Assembly (NCBI GenBank): GCA_009833045.1
Contig: WUUP01000002.1
Span: forward strand, 124,001-188,000
From: Saprospirales bacterium GYS_P2D
GTDB taxonomy: Bacteria; Bacteroidota; Bacteroidia; Chitinophagales; Saprospiraceae
Length of the DNA stretch: 64,000 nt
Direction: 5' to 3'
Positions 19,939-45,963 of the stretch are shown here, piece by piece (the first letter of the stretch is position 1; every line of letters begins with the position of its first letter). The translations under genes were made by a program, and so were the position numbers. The notes under the pieces were generated by a model. It did no database searches and was not told the DNA's origin. It worked only from the letters and a program-made list of their open reading frames with translations.

Positions 19939-20055
19939 TGATCGTTTTTGTTTTGATTGGTCAGTAAGATAGTGATCCTATATCTTCCTCCATATGGATT
20001 TAGATAAAACCAAGCAGATCTACGATAAGATGACAAGTTGTGGCTGGTCCAATGA

Positions 20056-20084
20056 TTGTCAATTCATTTGTACAGCTAACTTTA
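20056..20084 (+). promoter_or_regulatory. Putative Bacteroidota-type promoter of the his operon
   Basis: TTG at 20056-20058 and TAACTTTA at 20077-20084 are 18 bases apart and resemble the phylum's -33 TTG and -7 TAnnTTTG elements. They would start transcription about 50-60 bases before the leader peptide. Position and context support it; the -7 box has one mismatch. Confidence 0.4.
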
Positions 20085-20146
20085 ATTCAACATTAAAATC
20101 TGAACCATCGTTATGAAATATTATTAAAAGAACATATCATTGCGAC

Positions 20147-20203
20147 ATGAATACAAAAGGACATACTCATTTTCATCTTCATGGTCATTTGACTTTGGGG
20201 TGA
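20147..20203 (+). CDS. hisL: His operon leader peptide
   Basis: An 18-codon frame, MNTKGHTHFHLHGHLTLG then TGA, with five His codons (all CAT) inside nine consecutive codons at 20162-20188. It sits just ahead of a terminator hairpin and of hisG, the arrangement of a ribosome-sensing leader: uncharged tRNA-His stalls the ribosome within the His codons. Five alternating histidines in so short a peptide are very unlikely by chance in this context. The start lacks a strong Shine-Dalgarno, as is normal in this phylum. Confidence 0.88.
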   Translation: MNTKGHTHFHLHGHLTLG

Positions 20204-20279
20204 GCGTGTATTATGTCTGCTTTATAAAAGAATATCATTATTAATGCCCGCTTGCCCATACAGGACAAGCGGGTTTTTT
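20198..20279 (+). promoter_or_regulatory. His operon attenuator (antiterminator and terminator)
   Basis: The terminator has arms at 20247-20257 and 20263-20273 (core CCCGCTTG with CAAGCGGG) followed by a T-run. A competing strand, GGGTGAGCG at 20198-20206, overlaps the leader stop codon and can pair over nine positions (two G-U) with CGCTTGCCC at 20249-20257, inside the terminator's left arm. With histidine plentiful, a ribosome at the stop codon masks 20198-20206 and the terminator forms. Stalled upstream on His codons, it leaves the strand free and the antiterminator forms. The pairing was worked out by eye; no energies were computed. Confidence 0.85.
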
Positions 20280-20295
20280 ATTTATAAGAATTGAC

Positions 20296-21150
20296 ATGGG
20301 ACTTAACATTGCTATTCAAAAATCCGGAAGACTATTTGATGATTCTGTCAGCCTGTTGAAAGATGCGGGTCTGAAAATCGACAACTCAAAAGATCAACTC
20401 AAAGCTGCGGTACGAAACTTTGACGCTGAGGTACTCTTCCTCAGAAACTCCGATATACCGAAGTATCTCGCTGACGGTGTGGCCGATTTAGCTATCATCG
20501 GAGAAAATACATTAATAGAAAAAGAGGCGGATGTGACCTTCATGGACAAATTAGGTTTCTCTAAGTGTAGGCTCTCTATCGCAGGTCCAAAAGGAAGCAC
20601 CTATAACGGAATCCAAGACCTCCAAGGAAAAAGAATTGCTACATCATATCCCAATACCCTCAAAGCCTATCTTAAAGAACATAACATTGATGCACAAATA
20701 CATCTCATCTCAGGATCTGTAGAAATAGCGCCTAATATTGGACTGGCAGATGCTATCTGTGACTTAGTGAGTAGCGGAAGTACTTTATTCAAAAATGGAC
20801 TCGAAGAATGGGAAGTCATACTCAAGTCTCAGGCCGTCATCGCCATCAATAAAAACCTCTCACAGGACAAACTCGACTTAATAGATCAAATGATGTTCAG
20901 AGTGAGATCTGTGATGAAAGGGCGAAACAATAAGTACATCCTGATGAATGTCCCTAATGAGAGTATCCAAGCCGTCAGTGACATACTCCCTGTACTCAAG
21001 AGTCCTACAGTACTACCGCTAGTAGAAGAAGGCTGGAGCTCTCTTCATAGCGTGATCAGCGAGGATGATTTCTGGAGCGTGATAAATGAGCTCAAGGAGC
21101 TCGGAGCAGAAGGAATATTAGTAGTACCTATCGAAAAAATGGTAGTCTAA
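20296..21150 (+). CDS. hisG: ATP phosphoribosyltransferase HisG (long form)
   Basis: First enzyme of histidine synthesis, joining ATP and PRPP. At 284 residues it is the long form: a periplasmic-binding-protein-like catalytic part (NIAIQKSGRL, LADGVADLAIIGENT, the PRPP-binding ADAICDLVSSGSTLFKNGL) followed from about residue 210 by an ACT-like regulatory domain (YILMNVPNESIQAVSDILP). The long form is feedback-inhibited by histidine and needs no HisZ; none is seen. First structural gene after the attenuator, two bases before hisD. Confidence 0.97.
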   Translation: MGLNIAIQKSGRLFDDSVSLLKDAGLKIDNSKDQLKAAVRNFDAEVLFLRNSDIPKYLADGVADLAIIGENTLIEKEADVTFMDKLGFSKCRLSIAGPKGSTYNGIQDLQGKRIATSYPNTLKAYLKEHNIDAQIHLISGSVEIAPNIGLADAICDLVSSGSTLFKNGLEEWEVILKSQAVIAINKNLSQDKLDLIDQMMFRVRSVMKGRNNKYILMNVPNESIQAVSDILPVLKSPTVLPLVEEGWSSLHSVISEDDFWSVINELKELGAEGILVVPIEKMVV

Positions 21151-21152
21151 CA

Positions 21153-22448
21153 ATGATCAAACTAAAGATATACACTAATCCTGATCTATCGACACAGGCG
21201 CAGCTGGTCAAACGTCCTGCCATGGATGTATCTGCCTTGAGGGATATAATAGAGGGAGTATTCGCTGAGGTGAGTGCTCGTGGTGATGACGCTATTAGAG
21301 AATATACGGAGAAATTTGACGGAGTAGCTCTCTCAGATATACGTGTCAGCGCTGAAGAGATCCAGTCAGCTGCGGACTCTTTAGACCCCAAACTGAAAGA
21401 AAGCATCCAGATCGCCTATGGCAATATCAAGCGTTTTCACGAGTCACAGCAACTCAAGGCAGAAAAAATCACTACCACATCAGGCGTGACCTGCTGGCAG
21501 GAGAGTAGAGCCATCGATAAAGTCGGGCTCTATATACCTGGTGGCACAGCCCCATTGTTTTCGACAGTACTCATGTTGGCTATACCTGCACAGATAGCAG
21601 GCTGCGAAGAGATCATCCTATGTACTCCTCCGTCTAATAGTGGCTCCGTGAATCCTGCAATCCTGTATACTGCTCAGCTATGCGGTATCACCGCCATCTA
21701 CAAGGTGGGTGGCTCACAAGCCATAGCAGCAATGGTGACAGGCACAGAAAGCGTACCCAGCGTCTATAAGATCTTTGGCCCGGGAAATCAGTATGTCACA
21801 GCAGCTAAAATGAAGGCCCTTGACTATGGAGTGGCTATCGATCTACCCGCAGGTCCGTCAGAAGTCTTAGTATTTGCTGATGAAAGCGCTGATCCAGCAT
21901 TTGTAGCATCAGATCTCCTGTCTCAGGCGGAGCATGGAGTGGATAGTCAGGTAGTATTCGTCACGACTGCTCCAGATCTGCTGCCACGAGTAGAGGTAGA
22001 GATCGAAAGACAGTTAGAGAATCTACCAAGAAAAGACATTGCTGCCAAGGCTCTTGATAATTCTTTTGCAGTAATATTTGATGATGATCAAGGCGCCTAC
22101 CAGTATATCAACTACTATGCACCGGAGCACTTCATTATCTCATCCGATGATCCGGATCAGTACATATGCATGACGCAGAATGCTGGCTCAGTATTTTTAG
22201 GTCATATGACGCCTGAGAGTGCTGGAGACTATGCCTCTGGGACTAATCACACACTCCCTACATCGGCCTATGCCCGATCTTATAGCGGAGTGTCGCTGGA
22301 CTCATTTATGACTAAGATCACCTTTCAGAAGATCACCGATGAGGGCATGAGAGCTATCGGCCCCGCCATCATACGCATGGCAGAAGAAGAAAAATTAGAA
22401 GGACATGCCAATGCGGTCCGATTGAGAATGAATAAGCTTAACGCATGA
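21153..22448 (+). CDS. hisD: Histidinol dehydrogenase
   Basis: Zinc enzyme performing the last two NAD-dependent oxidations, from histidinol to histidine. The 431-residue protein shows GLYIPGGTAPLFSTVLMLAI, KVGGSQAIAAMVTGTESVP, FGPGNQYVTAAK, DLPAGPSEVLVFAD, LLSQAEHGVDSQV and the metal and base region APEHF with ESAGDYASGTNHTLPT. All family landmarks are in order. The stop overlaps the hisC start by four bases. Confidence 0.97.
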   Translation: MIKLKIYTNPDLSTQAQLVKRPAMDVSALRDIIEGVFAEVSARGDDAIREYTEKFDGVALSDIRVSAEEIQSAADSLDPKLKESIQIAYGNIKRFHESQQLKAEKITTTSGVTCWQESRAIDKVGLYIPGGTAPLFSTVLMLAIPAQIAGCEEIILCTPPSNSGSVNPAILYTAQLCGITAIYKVGGSQAIAAMVTGTESVPSVYKIFGPGNQYVTAAKMKALDYGVAIDLPAGPSEVLVFADESADPAFVASDLLSQAEHGVDSQVVFVTTAPDLLPRVEVEIERQLENLPRKDIAAKALDNSFAVIFDDDQGAYQYINYYAPEHFIISSDDPDQYICMTQNAGSVFLGHMTPESAGDYASGTNHTLPTSAYARSYSGVSLDSFMTKITFQKITDEGMRAIGPAIIRMAEEEKLEGHANAVRLRMNKLNA

Positions 22449-23479
22449 ACATAGAGCAACTGGTCAGAGCCAATGTCAGAAGCTTGGTACCTTTCAGTTC
22501 GGCTCGCTCTGAGTTTACAGGGACAGCTGAGGTATTCCTCGATGCCAATGAAAATCCCTATGAAAATGGCATGAATCGGTATCCTGATCCTTACCAAAAA
22601 GAGCTAAAACAGGAAATAGCTAAATGGAAAAACACCAAGGCTGAGTACATATTCTTAGGTAATGGTAGTGATGAGATCATAGATATATTAATACGAGTAT
22701 TTTGTACACCGACGGTCGATCGTATCAGATATATCCATCCGAGTTTCAGCATGTATCGTATTTCAGCAGAGATTAACGATGTCGACCGTATAGCTATACC
22801 ATTGACCACGGATTTTGGGATAGATGTCGAGGCCTGTCTCCGAGATCAGCAGCCAGAGGACAAGATTCTATTCCTCTGTTCTCCTAATAACCCAACTGGT
22901 AATAGCTATAGCCGTGAAATACTCGAAACGCTAATCAAAGGGTGGAAAGGAATAGTCGTCGTCGATGAGGCCTATATCGACTTTTCCGATGAGCCCTCGC
23001 TGATAGATAGTATCGAACAATACGACAATCTGGTAATACTACAGACTTTCTCAAAAGCTATGGGAGGAGCTGGTTTGAGATTGGGTATGGCTTTCGCCAA
23101 TGAAGAGCTCCTTAGCTACATGAACAAGATCAAAGCCCCGTACAATATAGGCACAGAGACGCAAAAAAGAGCTATGGAGCTACTCGCTAATCGATCTCAA
23201 ATCGACACTCAAATCCAAACCGTGCTCAAAGAGCGAAAGTCTCTAAAGACACAGCTGGAAGCTATGGACTTAGTACTCCAGGTGCATCGCAGCGATGCTA
23301 ATTTTCTCTTAGTCCAATTTGAAGATCCTATCCCTGTGATGCGTCACCTCATTGAGAAAGGTGTGATTGTCCGGGATAGAAGCAAAGAACCAGGCTGTAG
23401 TGGTTGTCTACGCTTTACTGTAGGACTACCCATAGAAAACAAAAGGCTCATCGAAGCCCTCAAAACATACAAATCATGA
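22445..23479 (+). CDS. hisC: Histidinol-phosphate aminotransferase
   Basis: PLP enzyme converting imidazole-acetol phosphate and glutamate to histidinol phosphate. The 344-residue protein has [51 protein letters not shown] and the Schiff-base lysine in [18 protein letters not shown]. The C-terminus holds a [10 protein letters not shown] arginine-region variant. Coupled to both neighbours by ATGA overlaps. Confidence 0.96.
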
Positions 23480-24600
23480 AAAAAGTATTATTCATAGATC
23501 GTGATGGGACCCTGATACGAGAGCCTCAGACAGACTATCAAGTAGATACTCTGGAGAAGTTTTCGTTTTATCCAGGTGTGATGACCTATCTCGGCCGTAT
23601 CGTGCAGGAACTCGACTATACACTCGTGATGGTCACTAATCAGGATGGACTCGGCACCGACTCCTATCCAGAGGATACATTCTGGCCGTATCAAGAGCTG
23701 ACAGTTGATACATTAGCTGGAGAAGGAATAGAATTCGGAGAGATTTGTATCGATAGGAGCTTTGAGAAGGATAACTCTCCCTATAGAAAGCCAGGCACCA
23801 AGATGCTGACTAAATATCTTAAAGGTGACTATGATCTCGGTAGATCTTACGTCATTGGAGATAGATGGAGCGACTCGATGCTTGCTAAAAATCTCGGAGC
23901 AAAAGGTATATTTCTCAACGAATATGAAGCTAAGACCGCAGAGACGCCAGCTGATCTCATAGATACAGTAGCTCTTAAAACCACCTCGTGGAAAGAAATC
24001 TACACAATGCTCAAAAGAGAAAATCGACTGAGCAGTATATCACGAGTGACCTCAGAGACTAAGATCGCAGTTCACTTAGATCTCGATGGTAGTGGCATGG
24101 CGGATATCGATACAGGTCTTCACTTCTTTGATCATATGCTCGATCAGATCGCTAAGCATGGTAACATGGATCTGATCATCAAAGTAGATGGTGATCTGGA
24201 GATCGATGAGCACCATACTATAGAAGATACAGCTATCACCTTGGGCAAAGCATTCAAAGAGGCTATTGGTAAGAAAGTAGGGATCAATCGATATGGATTT
24301 GCACTGCCTATGGATGACTGCTTAGCGCAAGTATTATTAGATTTTGGAGGTAGAGCGTGGCTGGAGTGGGATGCCACTTTCACTCGTGAAAAGATAGGAG
24401 ATGTACCGACAGAGATGTTTTATCATTTCTTCAAGTCATTCTCCGATCACGCCGAGTGTAATCTCAACATCAAGGCCGAAGGTGATAATGAGCACCACAA
24501 GATCGAGGCCATATTCAAATCATTTGCTCGAGCCATCAGACATGGCAAGTCACGAGATATCAATAGTGATGAGCTACCATCTACTAAAGGAGTATTATGA
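23476..24600 (+). CDS. hisB: Bifunctional histidinol-phosphatase / imidazoleglycerol-phosphate dehydratase
   Basis: Two-domain HisB of the enterobacterial type. Residues 1 to about 165 are a HAD phosphatase ([12 protein letters not shown] with the nucleophile aspartate, [27 protein letters not shown]). Residues about 185-374 are the dehydratase ([73 protein letters not shown]). Start set at ATG 23476, overlapping the hisC stop by four bases and starting directly at [11 protein letters not shown]; the in-frame ATG at 23404 lies inside hisC. Confidence 0.97.
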
Positions 24601-25187
24601 TCGTACTGATAGACTATGATGCAGGGAATACGTGCTCTGTGATGAATGCGCTGAAGCGACTTGAAGTAGACTTTGTCCTATCTGACGATCCAGAAGTGAT
24701 ACGTTCTGCCGAAAAGGTGATTTTTCCTGGTGTCGGTCATGCTAAGGCGGCTATGGATAGCCTCCGAGAAAAAGGACTTGTCGAAGTAATCAAAGGACTG
24801 ACGCAGCCAGTACTCGGTATCTGCGTAGGTATGCAGCTACTCTGCACTTCCTCAAAAGAGGGTGACGCCGACTGCCTCGATGTGATCCCGCTGAGAGTGA
24901 CAAAATTTGACGAAAATCCAGCACTCAAAGTGCCACATATGGGATGGAATACCCTGACTAATGTGCAGGATCACCCACTCTTTAAAGGAATAGAAAGCGA
25001 AGAGTACTTCTACTTCGTGCATTCGTACTATGTACCGCAGTCCTCATACTCGATAGCAGACTGTGAGTACGATTTGGAGTTTTCTGCGGCCGTGCAAAAA
25101 GATAATTTCTATGGGATACAGTTTCATGCAGAGAAGAGTGGGCCTATAGGTGCTCAATTATTATCTAACTTTATCACCCAGATATAA
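24597..25187 (+). CDS. hisH: Imidazole glycerol phosphate synthase subunit HisH
   Basis: Class I glutamine amidotransferase subunit that feeds ammonia to HisF. The 196-residue protein has [13 protein letters not shown], the nucleophile cysteine in [11 protein letters not shown] and the His-Glu pair in [10 protein letters not shown]. Start ATG overlaps the hisB stop by four bases. Confidence 0.97.
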
Positions 25188-25196
25188 GCTAATCGT

Positions 25197-25925
25197 ATGA
25201 AAATCATACCCGCAATAGACATCATCGACGGTAAATGTGTCCGACTCACTCAGGGCGACTATGGTCAAAAAAAGGTATATGATCAGAGTCCGCTCGAGGT
25301 CGCTCAAGATCTACATCGACGAGGATTCAAATATCTGCACATGGTCGATCTGGATGGCGCTAAATCAAGTGCTCCTAAGAATCTGTATACGCTCAATCAA
25401 GTAGCGCTGGATACTAATCTAAAGATTGATTTTGGAGGTGGAATAAAGAGTGAAGACTCATTGATCCAAGCATTTCGTTCAGGTGCAAATCAAGTCAATA
25501 TCGGTAGCCTTGCAGTCAGAAATCCTATACTGGTGAAGTTTTGGGTAATGAAATTTGGTGCGGATAAAATCATTCTCGGGGCTGACGTCAAAGACAATAA
25601 ACTGGCTGTACATGGCTGGCAAGAAGAAACAGATGTCGACATACTCGAATTCATCAATGACTACTCGGATGATGGCGCTGTTAACTTTGTCTGTACAGAC
25701 ATATCAAAAGATGGAATGATGCAGGGCTCAAGTATAGAGCTATACGATCGCATCTTGGACAACTTTCCTAAGATCAATCTCATCGCATCAGGTGGTGTAT
25801 CAAGCATCAGAGAGCTAAAGCAGCTGCAAGATCTCGGAGTACATGGTGCCATAGTCGGCAAAGCTATCTATGAAGGACTCATCGATCTGGATGAATTGAT
25901 GAGAGAATTTGGTGATCAACAATAA
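25197..25925 (+). CDS. hisA: Phosphoribosylformimino-5-aminoimidazole carboxamide ribotide isomerase HisA
   Basis: TIM-barrel isomerase acting before the HisH-HisF step. The 242-residue protein begins MKIIPAIDIIDGKCVRLTQGDYG (an aspartate base in the first strand) and has the phosphate-binding IDFGGGIKS and LIASGGVSSIREL loops plus FVCTDISKDGMMQG. Nine bases separate it from hisH. Confidence 0.97.
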   Translation: MKIIPAIDIIDGKCVRLTQGDYGQKKVYDQSPLEVAQDLHRRGFKYLHMVDLDGAKSSAPKNLYTLNQVALDTNLKIDFGGGIKSEDSLIQAFRSGANQVNIGSLAVRNPILVKFWVMKFGADKIILGADVKDNKLAVHGWQEETDVDILEFINDYSDDGAVNFVCTDISKDGMMQGSSIELYDRILDNFPKINLIASGGVSSIRELKQLQDLGVHGAIVGKAIYEGLIDLDELMREFGDQQ

Positions 25926-25928
25926 GAC

Positions 25929-26684
25929 ATGCTAACAAAAAGAATAATACCCTGTCTCGACATCAAAAATGGTCGTACAGTAAAAGGTGTCAACTTCCTC
26001 AATCTAAGGGATGCTGGAGACCCTGTCGAGCTGGCAAAGAAATATGCTCTCGAAGGAGCCGACGAACTGGTATTCCTCGATATCTCAGCCACTCAAGAAG
26101 AGCGTGAGACGATATATGACTTAGTCTATAGAGTCGCAGAACAGATCAATATTCCATTCACCGTGGGCGGCGGTATCGCATCATCAGACAAGGTCTCCAA
26201 GATCCTCAATAATGGTGCAGATAAGGTTAGCGTCAATAGTGCTGCTGTGTACAATCCTCAGATCGTAAAAGAGATATCTGACAAATTCGGGGCACAGTGC
26301 ATGGTCGTAGCAATCGATGCACGACATGTCGATGGACAGTGGCTCGTACATACCCACGGAGGATCTAAGCCGACAGAGCTGGAGCTATTTTCATGGGCTG
26401 AGAAGATGGAAGATATGGGAGCTGGAGAGATACTATTTACCTCAATGGACCATGATGGTACTAAAGAGGGATTTGCCTGCGAGGCACTCGCTGAGATGAG
26501 TAGTCGACTGACCATACCAGTGATCGCCTCTGGAGGAGCTGGAAAAATGGTAGACTTTAAAGAAGTTTTCACTGATGGAAAGGCAGATGCTGGACTCGCA
26601 GCCAGTATTTTTCATTTCAATGAAATCCCAATCCCTGAACTAAAAAGCTATCTGAAAGAAGAGGGTATATCCGTAAGAATCTAA
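25929..26684 (+). CDS. hisF: Imidazole glycerol phosphate synthase subunit HisF
   Basis: TIM-barrel cyclase that uses ammonia from HisH to make imidazole glycerol phosphate and AICAR. The 251-residue protein has [20 protein letters not shown] with the first catalytic aspartate, [39 protein letters not shown] with the second catalytic aspartate, and VIASGGAGK. Three bases after hisA. Confidence 0.97.
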
Positions 26685-26689
26685 TAAAA

Positions 26690-27289
26690 ATGAAAACAAT
26701 GAAATTTGATCCATCTACGGGACTGATCCCGGCTATCATACAAGATCCTGTGACAAATAAAGTCCTCATGATGGGCTATATGAATCAAGAGGCATTTGAT
26801 ATCACTATCAAAACTGGGAAGGTGACTTTCTGGAGTAGATCTCGAAATGAGCTCTGGACCAAAGGAGAAACCTCCGGCAACTACCTGCATCTCAAAAGCT
26901 ACAAGCTGGACTGTGATAAGGACACCCTCTTGATCAAAGCACGCCCTGATGGCCCCACCTGTCATACTGGCGCTGATACTTGCTGGGATGAGAGCAACTG
27001 TACTGGGTCAGGAGCCTTCCTCGACTATCTTGAGAGCGTGATCGTCGATCGCTATGAAAATCGTGGCGAAAAATCTTATACCGCTTCCTTATTTGACAAA
27101 GGCACCAATAAAATCGCTCAGAAAGTAGGCGAAGAAGCGGTAGAACTCGTCATCGAAGCAAAAGATGATAATGATGAATTATTCATCGGAGAGGCGGCGG
27201 ATCTCATGTTTCACTATTTAGTACTACTCAAGGATAGAGGTCTCGGCCTAAAAGATGTAGTCAAAACGCTGAAAGAACGTCATGGGTAG
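26690..27289 (+). CDS. hisIE: Bifunctional phosphoribosyl-AMP cyclohydrolase / phosphoribosyl-ATP pyrophosphatase
   Basis: Fusion of HisI (about residues 1-105) and HisE (about 110-199), catalysing steps 2 and 3. The HisI part has MMGYMNQEAFD, TFWSRSRNELWTKGETSGN and the zinc cysteines in CDKDTLL and GPTCHTGADTCW. The HisE part has KVGEEAVELVIEAKDDND and EAADLMFHYLVLLKDRG. An alternative start three codons downstream (ATG 26699) is possible. Last gene of the operon, which thereby encodes every enzymatic step of histidine synthesis. Confidence 0.96.
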   Translation: MKTMKFDPSTGLIPAIIQDPVTNKVLMMGYMNQEAFDITIKTGKVTFWSRSRNELWTKGETSGNYLHLKSYKLDCDKDTLLIKARPDGPTCHTGADTCWDESNCTGSGAFLDYLESVIVDRYENRGEKSYTASLFDKGTNKIAQKVGEEAVELVIEAKDDNDELFIGEAADLMFHYLVLLKDRGLGLKDVVKTLKERHG

Positions 27290-45829: not shown

Positions 45830-45869
45830 AAAAAAAAGCGGCTTGTCAGGAAATCGACAAGCCGCTTTT
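45830..45869 (-). terminator. Trp operon attenuator terminator
   Basis: On the minus strand AAAAGCGGCTTGTC (45869-45856) pairs perfectly with GACAAGCCGCTTTT (45847-45834), followed by a run of T to 45830. It lies between the leader peptide and trpE, where a terminator can only be regulatory. A possible antiterminator pairs GTAAGC (45895-45890, starting in the leader stop codon) with GCTTGT (45862-45857) over six positions, two of them G-U. The CACCA at 45890-45886 can also pair with the tandem TGG codons as a pause hairpin. Confidence 0.85.
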
Positions 45870-45894
45870 GTATCTTTTCAATAGATGGTGCTTA

Positions 45895-45963
45895 CTACGT
45901 TCCCGTATGTTCCGATGTATTAGTATGCCACCACCAAGATTTGAAAATCATAATCATAATCAT
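45895..45963 (-). CDS. trpL: Trp operon leader peptide
   Basis: A short minus-strand frame ending at TAG 45897-45895 and containing three consecutive TGG codons (45936-45928). Three in-frame ATGs (45963, 45957, 45951) begin it; the shortest gives MIFKSWWWHTNTSEHTGT. Given the promoter position, 45957 or 45951 may be the real start. Consecutive tryptophans just before a terminator hairpin and trpE define a tryptophan-sensing leader: scarcity of charged tRNA-Trp stalls the ribosome on the TGG run. Confidence 0.88.
   Translation of the reverse strand: MIMIMIFKSWWWHTNTSEHTGT

Follow-up and report, generated by a model that had tools for sequence, protein, structure and literature searches.

In enterobacteria, the his operon is preceded by hisL, i.e. 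a leader encoding a peptide with His codons and folding into mutually exclusive protector, antiterminator and terminator structures. Candidate attenuators in Bacteroidetes/Chlorobi were reportedly already listed in a comparative study by Vitreschak and colleagues in 2004. Attenuators of his genes are also known from the Bacillus cereus group, Peptostreptococcaceae and Erysipelotrichales (PMC9413887). In Flavobacterium psychrophilum, a published account describes a structured element before hisG that has no Rfam hit and is conserved in Flavobacteriaceae, and proposes leader-peptide attenuation for amino-acid biosynthesis operons (PMC9723704). Furthermore, the Bacteroid-trp RNA (RF01692) of Bacteroidetes is predicted to act by Trp leader attenuation (PMC2864571; discussed in PMC6414381).

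Here, we analysed a stretch of 64 000 nt from Saprospirales bacterium GYS_P2D (the window), in which the element before hisG is very likely a ribosome-mediated his transcription attenuator with the classic three-hairpin layout, i.e. a protector (1:2), an antiterminator (2:3) and a terminator (3:4). Like hisL, it has a His-rich leader peptide and exclusive protector, antiterminator and terminator pairings in front of a his operon; unlike hisL, it is shorter, has a simpler pairing chain and carries its stop codon in strand 2, and it shows no Shine-Dalgarno sequence, a possibly leaderless mRNA and no match to RF00514. It resembles the Firmicutes attenuators in its short His-run leader and its alternative terminator and antiterminator before his genes, although these belong to another phylum and the likeness is one of description (PMC9413887). 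The F. psychrophilum element shares the phylum, the gene and the lack of an Rfam hit, and the Saprospiraceae window adds the leader peptide, the pairings and their covariation, none of which features in the accessible part of that text (PMC9723704). Bacteroid-trp is likewise an amino-acid operon leader of the same phylum but, unlike the his leader, senses Trp. Therefore, the hisG attenuator belongs to a known kind, and the new architecture claimed for it in the original prediction fails.

The his leader, its terminator and the operon

The leader is a short, putatively translated frame in which five of 18 codons specify His, as expected for a his attenuator; all five read CAT in the sequence, at 20162, 20168, 20174, 20180 and 20186 (Table 1). 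Together with the terminator, it lies directly before a complete histidine biosynthesis operon, hisG-hisD-hisC-hisB-hisH-hisA-hisF-hisIE (20296–27289), all genes of which score above the NCBIfam cut-offs. Ahead of the first gene, the terminator has the form of an intrinsic terminator and folds at −18.6 kcal/mol (z = −4.5 against shuffles). It was not detected by a sigma-70/terminator pattern scan, its 11 nt loop exceeding the limit of the tool. Regarding these elements, the original prediction had placed the 18-residue leader with its five His codons, the terminator and the exclusive pairing correctly, and its identification of a his attenuator is supported.

Table 1. Positions of the leader elements in the window
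Feature	Position	Strand	Description	Basis
Candidate −7 promoter element	20135..20142	+	TATCATTG; 5/6 of the Bacteroidota consensus TAnnTTTG	Promoter-box scan
his leader frame	20147..20203	+	ATG 20147, MNTKGHTHFHLHGHLTLG, TGA 20201-20203	
Protector hairpin 1:2	20159..20218	+	His-codon stretch pairs with the stop-codon strand	RNA folds; covariation and permutation in relatives
Strand 2 (5' strand of the antiterminator)	20198..20206	+	GGGTGAGCG, holds the leader stop codon	
Strand 3 (3' strand of the antiterminator)	20249..20257	+	CGCTTGCCC, overlaps the terminator left arm	Covaries with strand 2 in relatives
Intrinsic terminator 3:4	20247..20279	+	Stem CCCGCTTG 20247-20254 / CAAGCGGG 20266-20273, then TTTTTT	Sequence and fold; covariation in relatives
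hisG	20296..21150	+	First gene of the operon	NCBIfam match above cut-off
Trp leader and terminator before trpE (45784)	45838-45963 (leader 45963-45895, terminator 45865-45838)	-	Peptide MIMIMIFKSWWWHTNTSEHTGT, WWW run, T8 tract	

Alternative pairings and ribosome position

The antiterminator consists of 9 bp, two of them G-U, and the strand plus its extension reached −17.4 kcal/mol in RNAduplex. Because strand 3 shares bases with the terminator left arm, 2:3 and 3:4 are mutually exclusive, as expected for an attenuator and as supported by folds, covariation and permutation. A transcript stopping short of the terminator right arm folds as the antiterminator, and the full leader transcript adopts the protector and the terminator together (−39.9 kcal/mol; z = −4.7), none of the shuffles being as stable. 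Pairings as good as 2:3 arose in 1 % of upstream-strand shuffles and with none of the terminator arms of other genomes, i.e. in a single-genome swap test that is diluted by clades with near-identical terminator arms and was therefore rerun on 15 dissimilar representatives, as given below.

A separate protector hairpin had been considered dispensable in the original prediction. However, the isolated region 20159–20219 folds into one long hairpin of −20.9 kcal/mol, with GGACATA and TATGTCT paired at the stem base and, above it, the His-codon stretch paired with the opposite strand, of which strand 2 and the stop codon are part. An equivalent 1:2 hairpin, as is characteristic of his attenuators, is predicted in nearly every relative and, as shown below, covaries across Bacteroidota. 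As a protector exists, the contrast that had been drawn with the enterobacterial his leader is largely gone. In folds of the growing transcript, strand 2 lies on strand 1 up to an end at 20255 and again from 20270, and for transcripts ending at 20260–20265 the equilibrium favours 2:3 over 1:2 (−24.9 vs −20.7 kcal/mol). In the same folds, 1:2 is complete around 40 nt ahead of the finished strand 3, so that a ribosome-free, i.e. untranslated, leader would probably terminate as well, depending on 1:2 forming first.

To simulate the influence of the ribosome, the RNA was masked up to and including the position 11 nt past the first base of the codon in the A site. For a ribosome at any of the five His codons (His6 to His14), strand 2 was free and P(2:3) was 0.99–1.00 before the terminator 3' arm emerged. 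A ribosome at codons 17–19, stop included, covered strand 2 and left the terminator alone, with P(2:3) 0.00 and P(3:4) 1.00 at the stop codon itself. For pre-terminator RNA at equilibrium and without a ribosome, P(2:3) was 0.92. The latter value, as well as the fact that the stop codon falls within strand 2, which the simulated ribosome covers there, would fit a reduced attenuator that has no protector, in which the stop-codon ribosome is the sole block of the antiterminator and an untranslated leader reads through. Such an arrangement is nevertheless very unlikely, given the strong predicted 1:2 in the window and in nearly all relatives, with compensatory changes, its formation ahead of strand 3 transcription and a placement of stop codon and strand 2 that varies among relatives.

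Under the classic attenuator, the following behaviour is inferred for the His-tRNA response, the kinetics and termination itself. If charged His-tRNA is scarce, the ribosome would stall on the His codons (20162–20188) and open 1:2, leaving strand 2 free to pair with strand 3; with 2:3 formed, no terminator would arise and the his operon would be transcribed. If His-tRNA is ample, the ribosome would reach the stop codon and cover strand 2, and 3:4 would stop transcription before hisG. Once the ribosome has departed, or if none was ever loaded, 1:2 would precede strand 3 and also favour termination. There would be two routes to termination, of which masking of strand 2 by the stop-codon ribosome is one. 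While the masking simulation upheld the original proposal of a stop-codon ribosome that hides strand 2 and frees the terminator, the restriction of termination to this route in that proposal is doubtful, as 1:2 would also protect the terminator in ribosome-free RNA.

Conservation and covariation in relatives

A short His-rich frame followed by a terminator within 130 nt was found before hisG in 117 of 130 Saprospiraceae regions, and eight further Saprospiraceae that the scan missed have both frame and hairpin by inspection, with a weaker T tract. Frame and terminator were also present at 75 of 80 named hisG loci of Saprospirales, Flavobacteriales and Bacteroidales, a set that shares a few contigs with the 130 regions (e.g. 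L004 and L131). Shuffled sequence gave a single positive (1/630), and when the same test was run for other amino acids, the runner-up to His (117 of 130) was Leu with 60. In a phylum-wide sample, 12 of 40 regions, counted whether or not hisG heads an operon there, were positive; these were mostly class-level relatives plus a few other families, and the element was absent from many.

Rfam gave no account of the element. RF00514 (His_leader) had no match in the window at the gathering score, in 20050–20340 at E-values up to 10 or in 20 relatives; RF01692 had none in the window and the T-box model none in the window or the relatives, both at the gathering score. The nearest model was the trpB motif (RF04312), rejected with 29.5 bits vs a cut-off of 59. 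Control of the operon by a metabolite-binding riboswitch or a T-box, with an accidental His-rich frame, can practically be dismissed, considering that no Rfam family, T-box included, reached the gathering score in the window or its relatives and that His-rich leaders occur far above chance frequency; we found no point supporting it.

Two loci, L040 and L193 (Phaeodactylibacter), keep the terminator, and no His-rich frame was found in them; L040 also keeps a tRNA-Phe gene. Possibly, the sensor was lost here and the terminator retained. Four other loci (L101, L103, L113 and L130) carry two successive units of His leader and terminator before hisG, around 170–210 nt apart, which are possibly tandem attenuators.

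Covariation was assessed in a MAFFT alignment (A2) of 55 relatives that does not contain the window, whose own support comes from its folds and from permutations in its nearest group. The protector had 81.1 % paired cells and 8 pairs changed on both sides, with a covariation score of 0.249 compared to 0.153 in shuffled and at most 0.157 in slid controls. For the antiterminator, 91.1 % of cells were paired and 5 pairs had changed on both sides (score 0.236; shuffled 0.173; slid ≤0.120), and for the terminator 99.7 % and 7 pairs, respectively (score 0.318; shuffled 0.157; slid ≤0.109). All three helices scored above all 500 shuffles, which leave relatedness in, and above every slid control. When arms were permuted among the genomes of the group nearest to the window, pairing was as good in 1 of 2000 cases for 2:3 (terminator arms) and in 0 of 2000 for 1:2 (protector arms); among the 15 dissimilar representatives, the counts were 0/2000 and 1/2000, respectively. 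RNAalifold returned no structure for the 1:2 part of the alignment, probably owing to a lower stem whose aligned position shifts from clade to clade, and explicit helices with permutation tests were used in its place. Direct observations comprise the elements in the sequence and their pairing, conservation and covariation. Since 1:2 covaries in the relatives, the layout follows the classic 1:2 / 2:3 / 3:4 scheme, and the covariation between strands 2 and 3 that had been put forward as a check was found in both the alignment score and the permutations.

A single exchange illustrates this. In a congener with 83 % HisG identity (L002), strand 2 reads AUGGUGAGCG and strand 3 CGCUUGCUAU, and the pair G198-C257 of the window is replaced by U-A. 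This pair lies outside the 8 bp terminator stem; therefore, its preservation is due to the antiterminator. One might instead suppose that the frame serves hisG translation by coupling or reinitiation and that the hairpin is a constitutive partial terminator without any switch, considering that hisG follows closely downstream of the hairpin and that leader frames are proposed, in general terms, to influence translation further downstream (PMC4833913). This is highly improbable, as it leaves the phylum-wide His enrichment of the leaders and the covariation of 2:3 without a role.

The relatives also show that a switch centred on the stop codon, as originally suggested, is no conserved rule, as strand 2 and the stop codon overlap in just 41 of 103 relatives. 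Measured to the centre of strand 2, the median distance is 20.5 nt from the last His codon upstream (sd 5.8) and 8 nt from the stop codon downstream (sd 7.9). The distance to the His codons varies less, in line with what the mechanism demands, and the centring on the stop codon in the window is incidental.

Transcript start and other leaders in the genome

Between the candidate −7 box and the leader ATG lie 4 nt, a spacing shared by the congener L002 (TATACTTG-CATT-GTG, by eye) as well as by L003 and L004. Judged from sequence, a −7-like box at this distance may put the transcription start at or beside the start codon. A Shine-Dalgarno-like 4-mer was present in just 2 of 117 leaders, and in many cases just a few nt separate a −7 box from the ATG, which suggests a very short or absent 5' UTR in his leaders. 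For comparison, leaderless mRNAs make up only around 4–6 % in mapped Bacteroidota (PMC7366714; PMC9723704).

In 45 of the 130 Saprospiraceae regions, the His leader is preceded by a tRNA-Phe(GAA) gene, mostly at a distance of 11–17 nt from the ATG (among others in L013, L020, L035, L036, L041, L052, L061 and L091); in the genome of the window, no tRNA-Phe gene was found at this site. This arrangement of genes suggests that tRNA-Phe and the his leader share a transcript and that tRNA processing would make the 5' end of the leader. It is tempting to speculate, though rather doubtful, that the attenuator acts on a (nearly) leaderless mRNA, with 70S ribosomes loading at the emerging start codon and, in many relatives, a 5' end processed from tRNA-Phe.

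The Trp leader and the strong terminator before trpE represent a second predicted leader-peptide attenuator in the window; the Rfam Bacteroid-trp model had no match to this leader. The leuA gene of the same genome showed no leader attenuator in front of it.

How amino-acid operons are regulated has received little study in Bacteroidota, and no Rfam model covers the his leader. The covariation supports classic leader-peptide his attenuation as standard in much of the phylum. If the leaderless or tRNA-processed reading were true, attenuation would be tuned to a phylum largely without Shine-Dalgarno sequences. Attenuation relies on a ribosome that closely follows the polymerase and would therefore imply local transcription–translation coupling in such a phylum.
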